Origin: Salegentibacter sp.
GTDB lineage: Bacteria; Bacteroidota; Bacteroidia; Flavobacteriales; Flavobacteriaceae
Length of the DNA stretch: 64,000 nucleotides
Assembly: GCA_024635795.1 (NCBI GenBank)
Contig: JAGXIH010000020.1
Location: forward strand, 1 to 64,000
Direction: 5' to 3'
Shown here: positions 11,434-18,352 of the stretch, piece after piece
Numbering within the stretch: position 1 is the stretch's first letter
How the letters are laid out: the number at the start of each line of letters is the position of its first letter
Made by a program: the position numbers and the translations under genes
The notes under the pieces: generated by a model
Database searches by the model: none
What the model saw: only the letters and a program-made list of their open reading frames with translations
What the model was told of the DNA's origin: nothing

Positions 11434-11540
11434 TTTAGATTTCAAAAGTAGGTTTTCTCTACAATTCTAAACCCTAAATTAATCTTAATATAATCCCAAC
11501 AATATTTAAATGTGAGTATAACAGTAAACACTTTAATCCG

Positions 11541-11576
11541 TGCAATTCGCTAAGAATTCGCGACAATTCGCGTTTA
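11541..11576 (-). repeat. AATTCGCG-type repeat abutting the cysN stop codon
   Basis: Three copies of AATTCGC(G) occur with spacings of 10-14 bases. The segment 11555-11576 matches 13323-13344 behind cysD at 21 of 22 positions, in the same orientation, and in both places the repeat runs exactly into the TAA stop codon of the upstream gene. See the copies at 12841-12876 and 13263-13344 around the GxxExxY gene. Confidence 0.85.
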
Positions 11577-12830
11577 CACAATCATCCCCGCCGCAACAGT
11601 TTCGTTGGTGTTTTCGTCGATTAAAATAATGCTTCCGGTATTACGGTTATCTCTGTACGAATCCAGCATTAACCTTCGGGTCGTTCGAATCTTCACTCTG
11701 GCAATATCATTCATCTCTAAATTGGAATCTTCACTATCTCTTTCAAAAGTGTTGATATCCATTTTATACACAACTTCCTTGATTATCGCTCGTTCCTCAT
11801 TTGAAGTATGCATAATGGTATATTTTGCACGTGGTTTTATAGCATCGTTGTTCAACCAGCATAGCATTACGTCAAACTCCTGCTCCTGCTCAGGTTGGTT
11901 ATTCTTCTTTACGATCATATCTCCCCTGCTTACATCGATATCATCTTCTAATGTAATCGATATAGACATAGGTGCATAGGCTTCTTTAACTTCCTGCTCC
12001 CCGGCATTGATCGATCTGATTTTAGAAGTAAATCCAGATGGCAGTACAGCTACTTCATCACCAACCCGGTAAATTCCACTGGCGATTCTTCCGGCATAAC
12101 CTCTGTAATCCCTGAACTCCTCAGTCTGCGGCCGTAATACAGTTTGCACCGCAAAACGAGCATCAATCTTATTGATATCACTGCTAATATGAAGATTCTC
12201 CAAAGTGCTTAGAAGGGTTCCGTTCTGATACCATTCCATATTCTTAGATCGGTTCACCACATTATCTCCTAATAAAGCACTGATTGGAATAAACCGTACA
12301 TCTTTCATCAACAGCTTGGAGGAGAACTCTTCAAATTGAGCAATAATACTATTATAAACTTCCTCCGAATACTCTACCAGATCCATTTTATTGATACAAA
12401 CAATCAGGTGAGGAATATTCAGTAGAGAAGCGATAAAAGAATGACGCTTTGTCTGCTCAATCACCCCGTGACGCGCATCGATCAGGATCACCGCTGCATT
12501 GGCAGTAGAAGCTCCTGTAACCATGTTCCTTGTATACTGTATATGCCCCGGAGTATCTGCTATAATAAATTTACGTTTAGGCGTGGTAAAATAACGGTAG
12601 GCGACATCAATGGTTATCCCCTGTGCTCTTTCATCTTTCAAACCATCGGTAAAAAGCGCCAAATCCACCCCATCGTGACCTTTTTTCGCACTGGTATTAC
12701 TCACCGATTCCAGCTGATCTTCAAATATAGATTTCGAGTCGAATAAAAGCCGACCTATAAGGGTGCTCTTTCCGTCGTCTACGGAGCCTGCGGTGGTGAA
12801 TCTTAATAATTGGTTATTGTCTATCTGCAT
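11574..12830 (-). CDS. cysN: Sulfate adenylyltransferase subunit 1 (CysN GTPase)
   Basis: CysN is the GTP-hydrolysing subunit that drives APS formation by CysD. The P-loop GSVDDGKST lies at residues 15-23, followed by DTPGHIQYTRNM and NKMDLV as the other GTPase motifs, and by EF-Tu-like beta-barrel domains. At 418 residues it is the stand-alone form without a fused APS kinase, which agrees with a separate cysC. It belongs to cysQ-DUF2061-cysC-cysD-cysN, but is separated from cysD by the repeat-flanked GxxExxY gene. The stop codon is part of the flanking repeat. Confidence 0.96.
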   Translation of the reverse strand: MQIDNNQLLRFTTAGSVDDGKSTLIGRLLFDSKSIFEDQLESVSNTSAKKGHDGVDLALFTDGLKDERAQGITIDVAYRYFTTPKRKFIIADTPGHIQYTRNMVTGASTANAAVILIDARHGVIEQTKRHSFIASLLNIPHLIVCINKMDLVEYSEEVYNSIIAQFEEFSSKLLMKDVRFIPISALLGDNVVNRSKNMEWYQNGTLLSTLENLHISSDINKIDARFAVQTVLRPQTEEFRDYRGYAGRIASGIYRVGDEVAVLPSGFTSKIRSINAGEQEVKEAYAPMSISITLEDDIDVSRGDMIVKKNNQPEQEQEFDVMLCWLNNDAIKPRAKYTIMHTSNEERAIIKEVVYKMDINTFERDSEDSNLEMNDIARVKIRTTRRLMLDSYRDNRNTGSIILIDENTNETVAAGMIV

Positions 12831-12840
12831 AATATTACTA

Positions 12841-12876
12841 ATTAACGCGAATTGAAATCAAAATTATCGCGAATTC
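12841..12876 (+). repeat. AATTCGCG-type repeat, inverted copy on the 3' side of the GxxExxY gene
   Basis: The segment contains AACGCGAATT (12844-12853) and AATTATCGCGAATT (12862-12875). These are exact inverted copies of AATTCGCGTT (13333-13342) and AATTCGCGATAATT (13323-13336) on the other side of the GxxExxY gene. The repeat supplies the last four codons and stop of that gene (the residues NSR-stop). Confidence 0.82.
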
Positions 12877-13262
12877 TGTGTATTAATTATTCTTTTATAA
12901 GTTAGAGAAGGCTGACCGAAATTAATCAACATTCCTAATTCCTTTTTTGTCGCTTTTAAGTAATTATTCAATTGTGAATAGAAAGCAACCGGTATATTTT
13001 TTACGGATTTTATTTCTAAAATAATTTTATCAAAACAAATAAAATCGGCTCTATAATATTTGTTCATTTTTTCATTATCGTAATATATTTCTAACTTTTT
13101 CTGACGCTTAAACGGAATGGACGATTTTATGAATTCTTTCTCCAAAGCTTCTTCATAAACTGCTTCAAGAAAACCAGGGCCCAATGCTCGATGAACTTTC
13201 ATACAAGCCCCTATGATTTGGTAGCTTTCTTCTTTAAACAATATCTTTTCTTCCGATCCCAT
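12864..13262 (-). CDS. GxxExxY protein (PD-(D/E)XK nuclease-like)
   Basis: The 132-residue protein has the family motif GFLEAVY (Gly30, Glu33, Tyr36) and a compact PD-(D/E)XK-like pattern: RADF with Asp73, ILEIK with Glu83 and Lys85, then YSQLNNYL with Gln97. Such proteins are frequent, often in several copies, in Bacteroidota and their function is not established. This copy breaks the cysD-cysN pair, which is normally contiguous, and is bracketed by inverted AATTCGCG repeats; its own C-terminal codons are formed by the repeat. Both facts suggest a late arrival as a small cassette. Nuclease activity is a family inference. Confidence 0.85.
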   Translation of the reverse strand: MGSEEKILFKEESYQIIGACMKVHRALGPGFLEAVYEEALEKEFIKSSIPFKRQKKLEIYYDNEKMNKYYRADFICFDKIILEIKSVKNIPVAFYSQLNNYLKATKKELGMLINFGQPSLTYKRIINTQNSR

Positions 13263-13344
13263 TCATGTCAATTCGTATACAATTCGGGTCAATTAGTCCA
13301 AGCTTCGCGTCAATTCGCATAAAATTCGCGATAATTCGCGTTTA
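13263..13344 (-). repeat. AATTCGCG-type repeat array between cysD and the GxxExxY gene
   Basis: About eight degenerate copies of a (N)TCAATTCGCG-like unit with 10-14-base spacing fill the whole gap between the cysD stop (13342-13344) and the GxxExxY start (13262). It contains the direct copy of 11555-11576 and the inverted copy of 12841-12876. Copies are best next to cysD and decay towards the GxxExxY start. Spacing is too short and uneven for a CRISPR array. Confidence 0.85.
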
Positions 13345-14247
13345 AAAATAACCCTGCTTCTTCCTATCCTCCATAGCCGTCTCACTCCTCTTATCATCCG
13401 ATCTATCCCCTCTTTCGGTCTTCCGCATTGCAGAAACTTCCAGTACGATCTTTTCAAGCGTATCGGCATCTGATTCTATTCCCCCGGTGATGGTGATATC
13501 TCCCAGAGTTCTGAAACGAATCTTCTTCTTCTCGACTTTTTCGCCTTCTTCAAGTTTAAGGTATTCCGATATGGGAATCCAGGAATTGCTTCTAAAGACC
13601 ACTTCTCTTTCATGGGCAAAATACAAAGAAGGTATACTGATATTCTCCCGCTTTATATAATTCCACACATCCATTTCGGTCCAGTTACTTATTGGAAAAG
13701 CCCTGAAATGTTCTCCTTCAAAATGTTTTCCGTTTAAAAGGTTCCATAACTCCGGACGTTGATTTTTTGGATCCCACTGGCCGAAATCGTCACGATGACT
13801 AAAAAAGCGTTCTTTAGCCCGTGCTTTCTCTTCATCCCTTCTTCCACCACCAATAGCACAATCGACTTTATTTGTCTCAATAGCATCAAGCAAAGTCGTA
13901 ATTTGTAAAGCATTTCGGGTGGCGTTTTTACCTTTTTCTTCAGCTACACGCCCCTGGTCAATAGATTCCTGAACGGAACCTACAATGAGTTTCACTCCGA
14001 GACTTTCCACAAGATCATCCCTGAACTGTATGGTTTCAGGGAAATTATGGCCGGTATCCACGTGCATTAAAGCAAAGGGAATCTTACTCGGATAAAAAGC
14101 TTTTTTTGCCAGATGGGTAACCAAAATAGAATCTTTCCCACCTGAAAACAGGATAACGGGATTCTCAAATTGGGCCCAAACCTCTCTTAAAATATAGATC
14201 GCTTCCGATTCTAATTCGTCTAAATAATTTAAATAATACTTGCTCAT
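13342..14247 (-). CDS. cysD: Sulfate adenylyltransferase subunit 2 (CysD)
   Basis: CysD adenylates sulfate to APS together with CysN. The PP-loop FSGGKDS is at residues 34-40, the family region GGGRRDEEKARAKER near residue 158 and the C-terminal RFRTLGD are present, and the 301-residue length is typical. Its ATG overlaps the cysC stop by four bases. No APS/PAPS reductase or sulfite reductase is found in the locus, which argues that the APS made here is used for sulfation rather than for cysteine synthesis; that is inference from context. Confidence 0.96.
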   Translation of the reverse strand: MSKYYLNYLDELESEAIYILREVWAQFENPVILFSGGKDSILVTHLAKKAFYPSKIPFALMHVDTGHNFPETIQFRDDLVESLGVKLIVGSVQESIDQGRVAEEKGKNATRNALQITTLLDAIETNKVDCAIGGGRRDEEKARAKERFFSHRDDFGQWDPKNQRPELWNLLNGKHFEGEHFRAFPISNWTEMDVWNYIKRENISIPSLYFAHEREVVFRSNSWIPISEYLKLEEGEKVEKKKIRFRTLGDITITGGIESDADTLEKIVLEVSAMRKTERGDRSDDKRSETAMEDRKKQGYF

Positions 14248-16250: not shown

Positions 16251-17645
16251 CTAACTCCCAATAGCATAAAACTCAAAGCCAATCTCTTCCTTTGTCTTTC
16301 TTTCCAATAACCTTCTTCCATCGAAAAGAAATGCCGGTTTAAGCATCTCCTCATAGATTTTCTTCCAGTCCAGTGCTATAAACTCATCCCATTCCGTTAA
16401 AACCGCAACGGCATGGGAGTCTTTGGTTGCTTCATAAGGAGTGTTCACCACTTTAACTCTGGCGCGGTTTTCTTCTGAAGACCGGGTGTTTAAATAATCC
16501 AGATCGGCATAGATCTGTTCGGTTTTCACCTTGGGATCGTAAACCATAACCTCTGCCTGTTCGTTCAATAAGTAATCAGCAACATAGATCGCAGCCGATT
16601 CCCGGGTATCGTTAGTATCTTTCTTAAATGCCCAGCCTAATAAAGCGATCTTCTTTCCTGAAACCGTATTGAAAAGGGTCTGCACGATTTTAGCCGCAAA
16701 TCTTCTTTTTTGATGATCATTCATCAGGATTACCTGCTCCCAGTAATCGGCTACCTCGTTTAATCCGAAGGATTTTGAAATATAAACCAGGTTCAGAATA
16801 TCCTTTTGGAAACACGAACCTCCAAAACCAACGGAAGATTTTAGAAATTTAGGCCCTATCCGGGAATCCATCCCTACGGCTTTTGCCACCTCATTGACAT
16901 CGGCACCTGTCTTTTCACATAATTCACTCATCGCGTTTATACTCGAAACTCTTTGGGCCAGGAAAGCATTGGCGGTTAGTTTAGACAATTCCGAAGACCA
17001 TACATTCGTGGTAAGCAATCTTTCCCTGGACACCCAATGTGCATATATATCTACCAAAGCCTCTACAGCTTGCTTTCCTTCTTCGGTATCAATGTCACCG
17101 CCGATCAGCACCCTGTCGGGATTCATCAGGTCATCTACCGCAGTTCCTTCTGCCAGAAACTCCGGATTGGAAAGTATCTGATAGTTCACTCCGTTCCCGG
17201 TATTATCCAGGATATTCTTTAAAGCTTCGGCGGTACGTACCGGCAGAGTAGATTTTTCAACTACTATCTTATCGTTTTTAGCCACTCGTGCAATCTGACG
17301 GGCACAAAGTTCGATAAATTTAAGATCGGCCGCCATTCCTTTCCCTATTCCATAGGTTTTGGTAGGTGTATTCACCGAGATAAAGATCATATCGGCCTTA
17401 TCAATAGCAGCATCAACATCAGTTGAGAAGAAAAGATTTCTACCTCTGGCCTCTTTCACCACAGCCGATAGTCCGGGCTCATAAATCGGAATGTTCTCCA
17501 CATCCTCATCATTCCAGGCATCAATTCTCTCCTTATTAATATCTACAACTGTAACATCAATCTCAGGACATTTCTGAGCGATAACGGCCATAGTAGGACC
17601 ACCTACGTATCCTGCTCCTATGCAGCATATATTTTTTATAATCAT
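16251..17645 (-). CDS. ugd: UDP-glucose 6-dehydrogenase
   Basis: The enzyme oxidises UDP-glucose to UDP-glucuronate. It is the long, animal-like form (464 residues) with the NAD-binding start [12 protein letters not shown] (residues 7-18), the middle-domain [12 protein letters not shown] and the catalytic cysteine in [10 protein letters not shown] (Cys278). The product can go directly into the glycan or to the 4-epimerase at 10408-11433. The upstream gap towards the four-helix-bundle gene is filled with TTAATTGG repeats, so a separate promoter cannot be recognised. Confidence 0.95.
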
Positions 17646-17650
17646 TATTC

Positions 17651-17709
17651 GTTAGTTCGTTAGTTCGTGAATTGGTTAATTGGTTAATTGGTTAAATAGT
17701 TAATTTGAA
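17651..17709 (+). repeat. TTAATTGG repeat array, left side of the four-helix-bundle gene
   Basis: Two GTTAGTTC units are followed by GGTTAATT, GGTTAATT, GGTTAAAT and AGTTAATT units, all 8 bases long. The 21 bases 17683-17703 (starting GTTAATTGGTTAAATAG) recur perfectly at 18145-18165 on the other side of the gene, in the same orientation. Confidence 0.9.
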
Positions 17710-18123: not shown

Positions 18124-18135
18124 ATCCGTGTCATT

Positions 18136-18181
18136 AGTTAAACAGTTAATTGGTTAAATAGTTAAACGGTTAATTGCTTTG
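18136..18181 (+). repeat. TTAATTGG repeat array, right side of the four-helix-bundle gene
   Basis: GTTAAACA, GTTAATTG, GTTAAATA, GTTAAACG and GTTAATTG units repeat with a period of 8 bases just upstream of the four-helix-bundle gene. Bases 18145-18165 are identical to 17683-17703. Confidence 0.9.
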
Positions 18182-18230
18182 TTTAGTTAGTAGTAAATAA
18201 TTTTAAAAACTCGGGAGAGGAGGGAGTGTT

Positions 18231-18352
18231 CATTAAACTAATCCCTAATTAACTAATCCCCATTCCCGAACTAACCATTCCCCAATTAACTAATTCACCA
18301 TTCCCCAGTCACAAATTAACCAATCCCGAATTCACCATCCCCCAATTAACAG
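18231..18352 (-). repeat. AATTAACTAATCCCC-type repeat array behind the UDP-HexNAc dehydrogenase
   Basis: Irregular alternation of AATTAAC(T/C)AA with CCATTCCCC or CAATCCCGAATTCACC blocks runs to within two bases of the dehydrogenase stop. On the minus strand it reads as the same GTTAATTGG-type motif as the arrays around the four-helix-bundle gene, but in the opposite orientation. A related stretch lies at 24528-24565. No open frame of note is inside. Confidence 0.8.

Follow-up and report, generated by a model that had tools for sequence, protein, structure and literature searches.

The cysD-cysN locus

The window, that is, the whole stretch of 64,000 nucleotides that was analysed, contains a small gene of the GxxExxY family (12864..13262, minus strand; 132 amino acids) between its upstream neighbour cysD (13342..14247, minus strand; PF01507) and its downstream neighbour cysN (11574..12830, minus strand; PF00009 and PF22594). 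All three genes lie on one strand. On the 5' side of the GxxExxY gene, an array of about eight degenerate GCGAATT units (13262..13341, minus strand; units counted by eye) spans the distance from the cysD stop codon to the GxxExxY start codon. In the coding direction, and directly after the cysD stop codon TAA, this array reads ACGCGAATT-ATCGCGAATT-TTATGCGAATT-GACGCGAAGC-TTGGACTAATT-GACCCGAATT-GTATACGAATT-GACATGAATG. By eye, the unit spacing alternates between 10 and 11 bp, and a search for direct repeats returned the corresponding 21-bp double period (spacing 21 and 21). The array on the 3' side (12840..12875, plus strand) consists of two inverted units. Since the gene ends with ...CAG AAT TCG CGA TAA, one inverted unit provides its last codons and its stop codon, and the second unit follows next to it.

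The initial annotation had described inverted repeats on both sides of the gene, of which the left one forms the last codons and the stop and the right one runs into the cysD stop codon. The coordinates bear this out: AATTCGCGATAATT at 13323-13336 is the exact inverse of AATTATCGCGAATT at 12862-12875, and AATTCGCGTT at 13333-13342 is the inverse of AACGCGAATT at 12844-12853. The observation is real but understated; the array of about eight units, a further array behind cysN and the occurrence of closely spaced word pairs above chance had been overlooked. The further array also has GCGAATT units and starts directly 3' of the cysN stop codon (11535..11573, minus strand). The array start TAA-ACGCGAATT-GTCGCGAATT recurs there, and no gene is present. 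Two AATTCGYG words at most 30 bp apart occur at three places in the genome, which comprises 1.98 Mb and is 61.6% complete, and at none in the reversed control. All three places are at the ends of two genes, the window cysN and its GxxExxY neighbour. The single word AATTCGYG is mildly enriched in the window (9 occurrences versus 4.0 expected; 3 of 100 shuffles were as high). Beyond the one array after cysN, no dispersal of the window repeat was detected in this incomplete genome.

The GxxExxY protein

The window protein matches PF13366 (E 2e-39; 135 bits versus a cut-off of 22) and TIGR04256 (E 1e-42; 145.2 versus a cut-off of 35). For comparison, a scan of named genomes supplied 80 GxxExxY loci, which are the best 80 of the matches listed; 7 of them were left out of the protein alignment due to stops or frame breaks. 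Five residues (E33, Y36, D73, E83 and K85) do not vary among the 74 aligned proteins, and Q97 and Y101 are each conserved in 72. Cas4/RecB-like nucleases are characterised by a catalytic D...ExK motif plus QxxxY, and the GxxExxY protein has the same arrangement with D73, E83, K85, Q97 and Y101. An AlphaFold model of the window protein (pLDDT 92.6, pTM 0.85) was compared with known structures. Foldseek returned 4ic1 (E 2.6e-4), which we take to be the Cas4 protein SSO0001, and lambda exonuclease (3slp, 5.3e-4). A second aligner also placed 4ic1_G first (rmsd 3.7, 100 aligned) with a Z-score of 8.8, which is only just above the range that this aligner calls common, and restriction-endonuclease-like folds followed. 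Motif and model together identify the protein as a predicted Cas4/lambda-exonuclease-like nuclease of the PD-(D/E)XK type, and the invariant residues suggest that it would be catalytically active. It resembles SSO0001 and lambda exonuclease in its fold and in the positions of the catalytic D, ExK and QxxxY residues, but it is encoded by a 132-aa gene that stands between cysD and cysN and has its own inverted arrays.

Moreover, the protein is maintained by selection. The dN and dS values for the three pairs among the genus copies in G000, G001 and G006 were 0.055/0.649, 0.154/1.385 and 0.144/1.870, and the low ratios of 0.08-0.11 indicate purifying selection. These values were obtained with NG86 because YN00 returned codon distances for one pair only (dN 0.064, dS 0.575).

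Bracketing of GxxExxY genes in different phyla

The GxxExxY loci belong to the Bacteroidota (50 of 74 aligned rows), Spirochaetota, Planctomycetota, Calditrichota, Pseudomonadota and others, and many of the records are metagenome bins whose assignment may be wrong (for instance, L133, which is titled Klebsiella pneumoniae MAG). For each locus, the inverted match between the 150 nt upstream and the 150 nt downstream of the gene was compared with all pairs of windows displaced along the same locus. Five of the best 80 loci listed had short flanks or too few controls and were left out. In the remaining 75 loci, the median arm match was 32 versus 16 for 4121 displaced pairs. The own arms exceeded every displaced pair in 59 of these 75 loci and the pooled 99% point in 56; 16 loci failed to beat all displaced controls. 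In the set from the genus, 7 of 10 loci were above every control. Bracketing by inverted arms is general in the loci tested. The initial annotation had proposed a search for AATTCG(C/T)G-type flanks at all GxxExxY genes of this genome, and had named the lack of such an association elsewhere as evidence against its reading. This did not come about, as GxxExxY genes elsewhere do carry inverted arrays in locus-specific form, but the AATTCG(C/T)G word is not general.

A weaker control, in which arms were swapped between loci, placed 51 of 77 loci above 95% and 26 above 99% of the swaps (L118, L132 and L140 were left out due to short flanks); 5 of 11 loci from the genus were above the 95% point. 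This modest result is partly explained by the similarity of the words between loci and by the recurrence of related loci. When the arms were matched in direct orientation, 23 and 20 of the 77 loci scored as well. In the cases inspected, the high direct-orientation scores came from palindromic hairpins that flank the gene on both sides. Weak or no arms were present at L042, L093, L103, L137 and others; at L042, a locus of the genus, the gene adjoins an oppositely oriented gene and the arm is weak and distant. As a pattern seen without a baseline, the cassette often lies close behind a stop codon between co-oriented genes, and raw counts without a baseline give 54 of 66 upstream and 50 of 65 downstream neighbour ORFs on the same strand.

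Period and word of the arms

Self-matching of the arms of 87 GxxExxY loci revealed peaks at lags 9 and 10, with lags 19 and 20 behind. The z-scores for lags 9 and 10 were 11.9 and 8.2 upstream and 13.9 and 6.9 downstream, and the spacing of 10 and 11 in the window is just above this general period. In summary, the words share a CRCNRAD-like form. After 2 of the 73 aligned loci had been left out, the oriented word was found at least three times in 61 of 71 loci, as compared to 15 of 64 distal flanks and 20 of 71 loci for the opposite orientation; the other ten loci do not have a word three times. The frame of one GxxExxY gene (L121, 205-555 and downstream) continues through several array units and thereby acquires a long C-terminal repeat tail.

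There is also a link between word and protein. For 64 loci (9 of the 73 aligned loci were left out due to short flanks or control flanks), a Mantel test of word against protein gave r 0.219 (p 0.0005), versus 0.073 (p 0.03) for the distal flanks. A correlation also exists between arm words and distal flanks (r 0.158), and the partial word-protein correlation is 0.21 (p 0.001). The link extends across phyla, which were labelled by hand on the basis of the tree; two rows lacking a named phylum were each labelled separately. Between phyla, the protein difference was 0.431 in 89 same-word pairs and 0.512 in the 820 others, a difference reached in none of 5000 label shuffles, which ignore shared ancestry. 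For the nearest relative from a different phylum, the word is the same in 22 of 47 cases, versus 9% expected, and is not shared in 25. The seven loci with a GAAA word are all non-Bacteroidota and come from six phyla. The initial annotation had proposed to test whether repeat type and protein clade co-vary, and in these loci the words do co-vary with the protein. As judged from this link, gene and arms appear to be inherited, and are probably also transferred, as one unit.

Variable sites in the genus

A cysD gene was found in 47 of 60 relatives, and 30 cysD-cysN junctions were read, one per genome. The same-genus comparison comprises 15 genomes with one cysD copy each. A GxxExxY gene occupies the spacer in four of them, flanked by GCGAATT units in G000, G001 and G006 and by ACGGATT units in G013. 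Three others (G003, G005 and G012) have a gene for an S23 four-helix-bundle protein with GGCTTTATGC-type inverted arms. The remaining eight spacers, with about 60-170 nt to the cysN start, are too short for either gene, and three of these contain a GGGG/CCCC inverted pair. Outside the genus, 1 of 15 junctions has an S23 gene (G026) and 14 are short. The initial annotation had named the presence of the gene at this site in all related genomes as evidence against its reading; the GxxExxY gene is in fact absent from it in 11 of 15 same-genus genomes. Empty sites had been proposed as a further point of comparison; gene-free junctions do exist in these 11 genomes, but the spacers are too diverged and differ wholesale, and no clean empty site was found at cysD-cysN or SUA5-CCA in the genomes compared. 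Likewise, no target-site duplication was visible by eye at cysD-cysN, SUA5-CCA and gmd-fcl, where whole spacers differ between genomes.

Two minor observations concern the cysD region. The cysD-cysN spacers of G009, G010 and G011 (L015, L017 and L018) carry a gene-less CCCCTAACCCCC / GGGGAGGTTGGGAGGGG-type inverted pair. Moreover, more than one similar cysD copy is present in G001, G004, G005, G009 and G014, and in the last four of these genomes, two of the copies share a contig at a distance of about 9-10 kb.

Altogether, 11 GxxExxY genes were found in 6 of the 15 genus genomes. Besides cysD-cysN, they are located at SUA5-CCA (three genomes), gmd-fcl, rmlB-rmlA and between fic- and hsdR-like genes, these names being a reading of the ORFs. 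The SUA5 site carries a cassette in 3 of 14 genomes. By eye, the 11 genomes without it have a GTCA-type REP-like pair in eight cases, a degenerate one in G007 and none in G001 and G003. In G006 (L260), the 3' end of SUA5 is duplicated: a further copy, together with the start of the left array, lies 3' of the cassette.

Arrays without a gene

Arrays are also present without a GxxExxY gene. Among 11 gmd-fcl copies read by eye, one copy of G013 contains a cassette whose words are of the form ACAGAG. Gene-less ACGGATT-type arrays occur in five others (the second copy of G013 and those of G001, G002, G003 and G007), and the remaining five have neither. Of 16 genomes read at the 3' side of cysN, two (G000 and G003) have a gene-less GCGAATT array. 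The array of G003 is nearly identical to that of the window, and no GxxExxY match was found in G003. In G001, a longer gene-less GCGAATT array follows a second cysN copy. A wider search of the 15 genus genomes for GCGAATT occurring twice 2-5 nt apart yielded 10 matches in five genomes versus 2 in the reversed control. Two matches were not taken as arrays, as one (the single match of G002) falls within a reading frame and the other (G011) is tied to no gene.

Among 14 further genomes that were reached through their loci, five contain the combination CCACGAAT-N0-4-CACGAAT (G062, 37 matches; G060, 12; G065, 9; G066, 13; G063, 55), and its reversed control gave one match across all 14 genomes. In G062, the matches form 13 clusters, of which one lies beside a GxxExxY gene and nine are no more than about 200 bases away from the end of a contig. 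Nine gene-less stretches of this genome were fetched; seven have both arms within about 170 bases, which is too close for a gene, and two have one orientation. Two stretches of G066 (L247 and L248) also have both arms and no gene, and five gene-less stretches of G065 and one of G060 are mainly of single orientation. L231, L239 and L240 from G062 are hairpins of about 60 bp; DNA folding z-scores were -10.7 and -9.9 for two of them and -8.6 for L247. These gene-less arrays and hairpins would be non-autonomous copies or remnants of decay.

S23 genes as a parallel case

A second small gene in the window shows a similar arrangement. The S23 gene (PF05635; 17752-18123, minus strand) is flanked on either side by arrays of the AACCAATT/AACTAATT type (about 17645-17700 and 18133-18350), and the upstream array is direct next to the gene and inverted further out. 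From the S23 matches listed, 30 loci each were fetched for the genus (L045-L074) and the phylum (L296-L325). L057 was left out by hand because it is near a contig start, and L317 and L324 because of contig ends. Among these listed matches, 26 of 29 genus loci and 20 of 28 phylum loci were above every control in the displaced-window test, and 12 of 29 genus loci were above the 95% point of the swapped-arm test. The S23 arms peak at lags 7, 14 and 21, with a lag 7 z-score of about 15 in the genus and of 10.1 and 8.6 in the phylum sample. Within the same listed matches, the array words differ between sites and most loci are bracketed by inverted arms. According to a passage in PMC4990558, GACAGAT heptamer repeats precede the ORF in the S23-encoding intervening sequence (IVS) of the Coxiella 23S rRNA. 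These heptamers match the 7-nt period around S23 genes outside rRNA.

Possible explanations for the cassettes

The S23 genes also raise the question of whether the arms act in RNA. They could pair in the operon mRNA such that RNase III removes the ORF, as in the 23S rRNA IVS elements that encode S23. These elements likewise carry a small ORF within terminal inverted repeats and, in the case of Coxiella, the heptamers described in a passage in PMC4990558. The S23 genes studied here are bracketed in a like style, and the neighbour ORFs of GxxExxY genes mostly lie on the same strand, as judged from the raw counts without a baseline. If the arms were kept for RNA pairing, G.U-type differences between them should exceed A.C-type differences. 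However, 119 G.U-type versus 165 A.C-type differences were counted in the GxxExxY arms (81 loci) and 27 versus 42 in the S23 arms (28 loci); loci under the score limit were left out (6 of 87 and 1 of 29, respectively), and L037, which is the same locus as L075, was counted once. The lack of a G.U excess favours recognition or copying at the DNA level, and from the sequence differences the arm match looks like a DNA-level one. Furthermore, arm pairs without a gene exist, and the GxxExxY units are spaced by 9-11 nt, near the B-DNA turn, rather than by 7 nt. The cassette also differs from the IVS in that it lies between the protein genes cysD and cysN and its ORF belongs to PF13366 and not to S23. 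An RNA stem was therefore demoted as the main mechanism and is, in our opinion, quite unlikely.

It is unlikely, too, that REP-like arrays were spread by other machinery and that the GxxExxY gene is a passenger that landed between them. This would fit the arrays and hairpins without a gene and the other REP-like pairs in the same spacers, such as the GTCA-type pair at the SUA5 site, but not the inverted arms around the gene in 59 of the 75 loci tested from the best 80 listed, a word that is tied to the protein even between phyla, or a spacing that follows the protein family (9-10 nt for GxxExxY versus 7 nt for S23). The variety at a single site may reflect an exchange hotspot, at which spacers of polysaccharide-type operons are swapped by homologous recombination with any small gene inside. 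The entire spacer indeed differs between genomes, cysD is present in multiple copies in several of them, and, from a reading of the ORFs, the neighbouring genes of the window resemble polysaccharide genes. However, a hotspot does not account for the arms around GxxExxY genes in unrelated contexts and phyla, and we consider it hardly probable as a full explanation. Least probable of all appears to be a purely regulatory role, in which the protein binds the arrays to control itself or the operon and nothing is mobile. Phased units would suit a DNA-binding protein, the upstream array fills the leader, and the arrays of the genus abut stop and start codons; yet an inverted downstream array is superfluous for regulation, the catalytic residues are invariant, the gene is patchily distributed and the words follow the protein between phyla.

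The best reading is a selfish cassette resembling the RAYT/REPIN systems, with a Cas4-like nuclease in place of the HUH transposase. RAYT/TnpA-REP elements consist of a single Y1 HUH transposase gene that is flanked by inverted REP-type repeats in an intergenic position, and gene-less REPINs are dispersed in the genome. RAYTs are thought to act on these REPINs. The GxxExxY cassettes share with them the intergenic location, the single gene in inverted repeats and, in some genomes, the gene-less arm pairs. However, PF13366 is the sole Pfam match of the window gene, with none to the HUH transposase family PF01797. The cassettes further differ by arms that are multi-unit phased arrays with words varying by clade, and the genome of the window has hardly any dispersed copies. 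By analogy, the cassette may work like RAYT/REPIN without being one. Stand-alone Cas4- or exonuclease-like transposases are not known. The logic of REP-associated transposases, to which the initial annotation had compared the locus, is supported by the gene-less arm pairs of other genomes but not by the 61.6%-complete window genome, in which no dispersal beyond the array after cysN was detected.

We give about an even chance to a gene-plus-ends cassette that consists of a Cas4/lambda-exonuclease-like nuclease gene within inverted, clade-specific arrays spaced by approximately a helical turn, and that acts in a RAYT-like manner. Most likely, the protein would recognise the arrays, either in double-stranded form or, during replication, as single-strand hairpins. 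Its nuclease activity would initiate a copying or repair process by which the cassette enters new sites. Such an action on the arrays would resemble the supposed action of RAYTs on REPINs. This reading is supported by the arms as compared to their controls, the word-protein link, the lack of a G.U excess, the invariant residues and the dN/dS ratios, as well as by the patchiness at cysD-cysN (4 of 15) and SUA5 (3 of 14) and the gene-less arm pairs and arrays. It is weakened by the lack of a duplication or empty site at the sites compared, the confinement of the word to the locus in the window genome, the 16 of 75 loci failing the controls, the swapped-arm result, the loci with weak or no arms, the distal-flank correlation, the shuffles that ignore ancestry and the 25 of 47 relatives without a shared word. 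As regards the mobility proposed at the outset, the patchy presence and the gene-less arm pairs speak for a cassette that may move, and the missing target-site duplication and clean empty site speak against it.

A broader proposal, which we put forward tentatively and with somewhat less confidence, is that the GxxExxY cassettes constitute a new, cross-phylum class of selfish DNA, in which a Cas4-like nuclease would read inverted arrays with clade-specific words in helical phase and would spread copies with and without the gene. The S23 genes would form a parallel class with a 7-nt period; the protein family would set the spacing and leave the word free. From the findings, there seems to be a class of gene-plus-repeat cassettes that has been little described and whose members may move from operon to operon. 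Among the matches listed in the open-access PMC literature, there was no description of such GxxExxY cassettes. The family is named in PMC8934634, in a passage that concerns the classification of reverse transcriptases. The entries of the profile libraries name GxxExxY by its motif and S23 by its fold, neither with a biological role. The consistent DNA context, the family-specific period and the clade-specific words make both families testable because the cognate word can be predicted for each protein. Moreover, the cassettes could be the origin of a part of the short intergenic repeats in environmental genomes for which there is no explanation, and they could extend the REPIN idea to nuclease-driven elements.

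A final observation relates to G063, the genome with 55 matches to the searched combination. Many of these matches have a fixed form and may belong to another family. In G063, CCACGAATTTACACGAAT also recurs dozens of times, often in overlap with CCACGAATTCCACGAAT and in many cases on contigs without a listed GxxExxY match, and perhaps represents a separate repeat or operator family.
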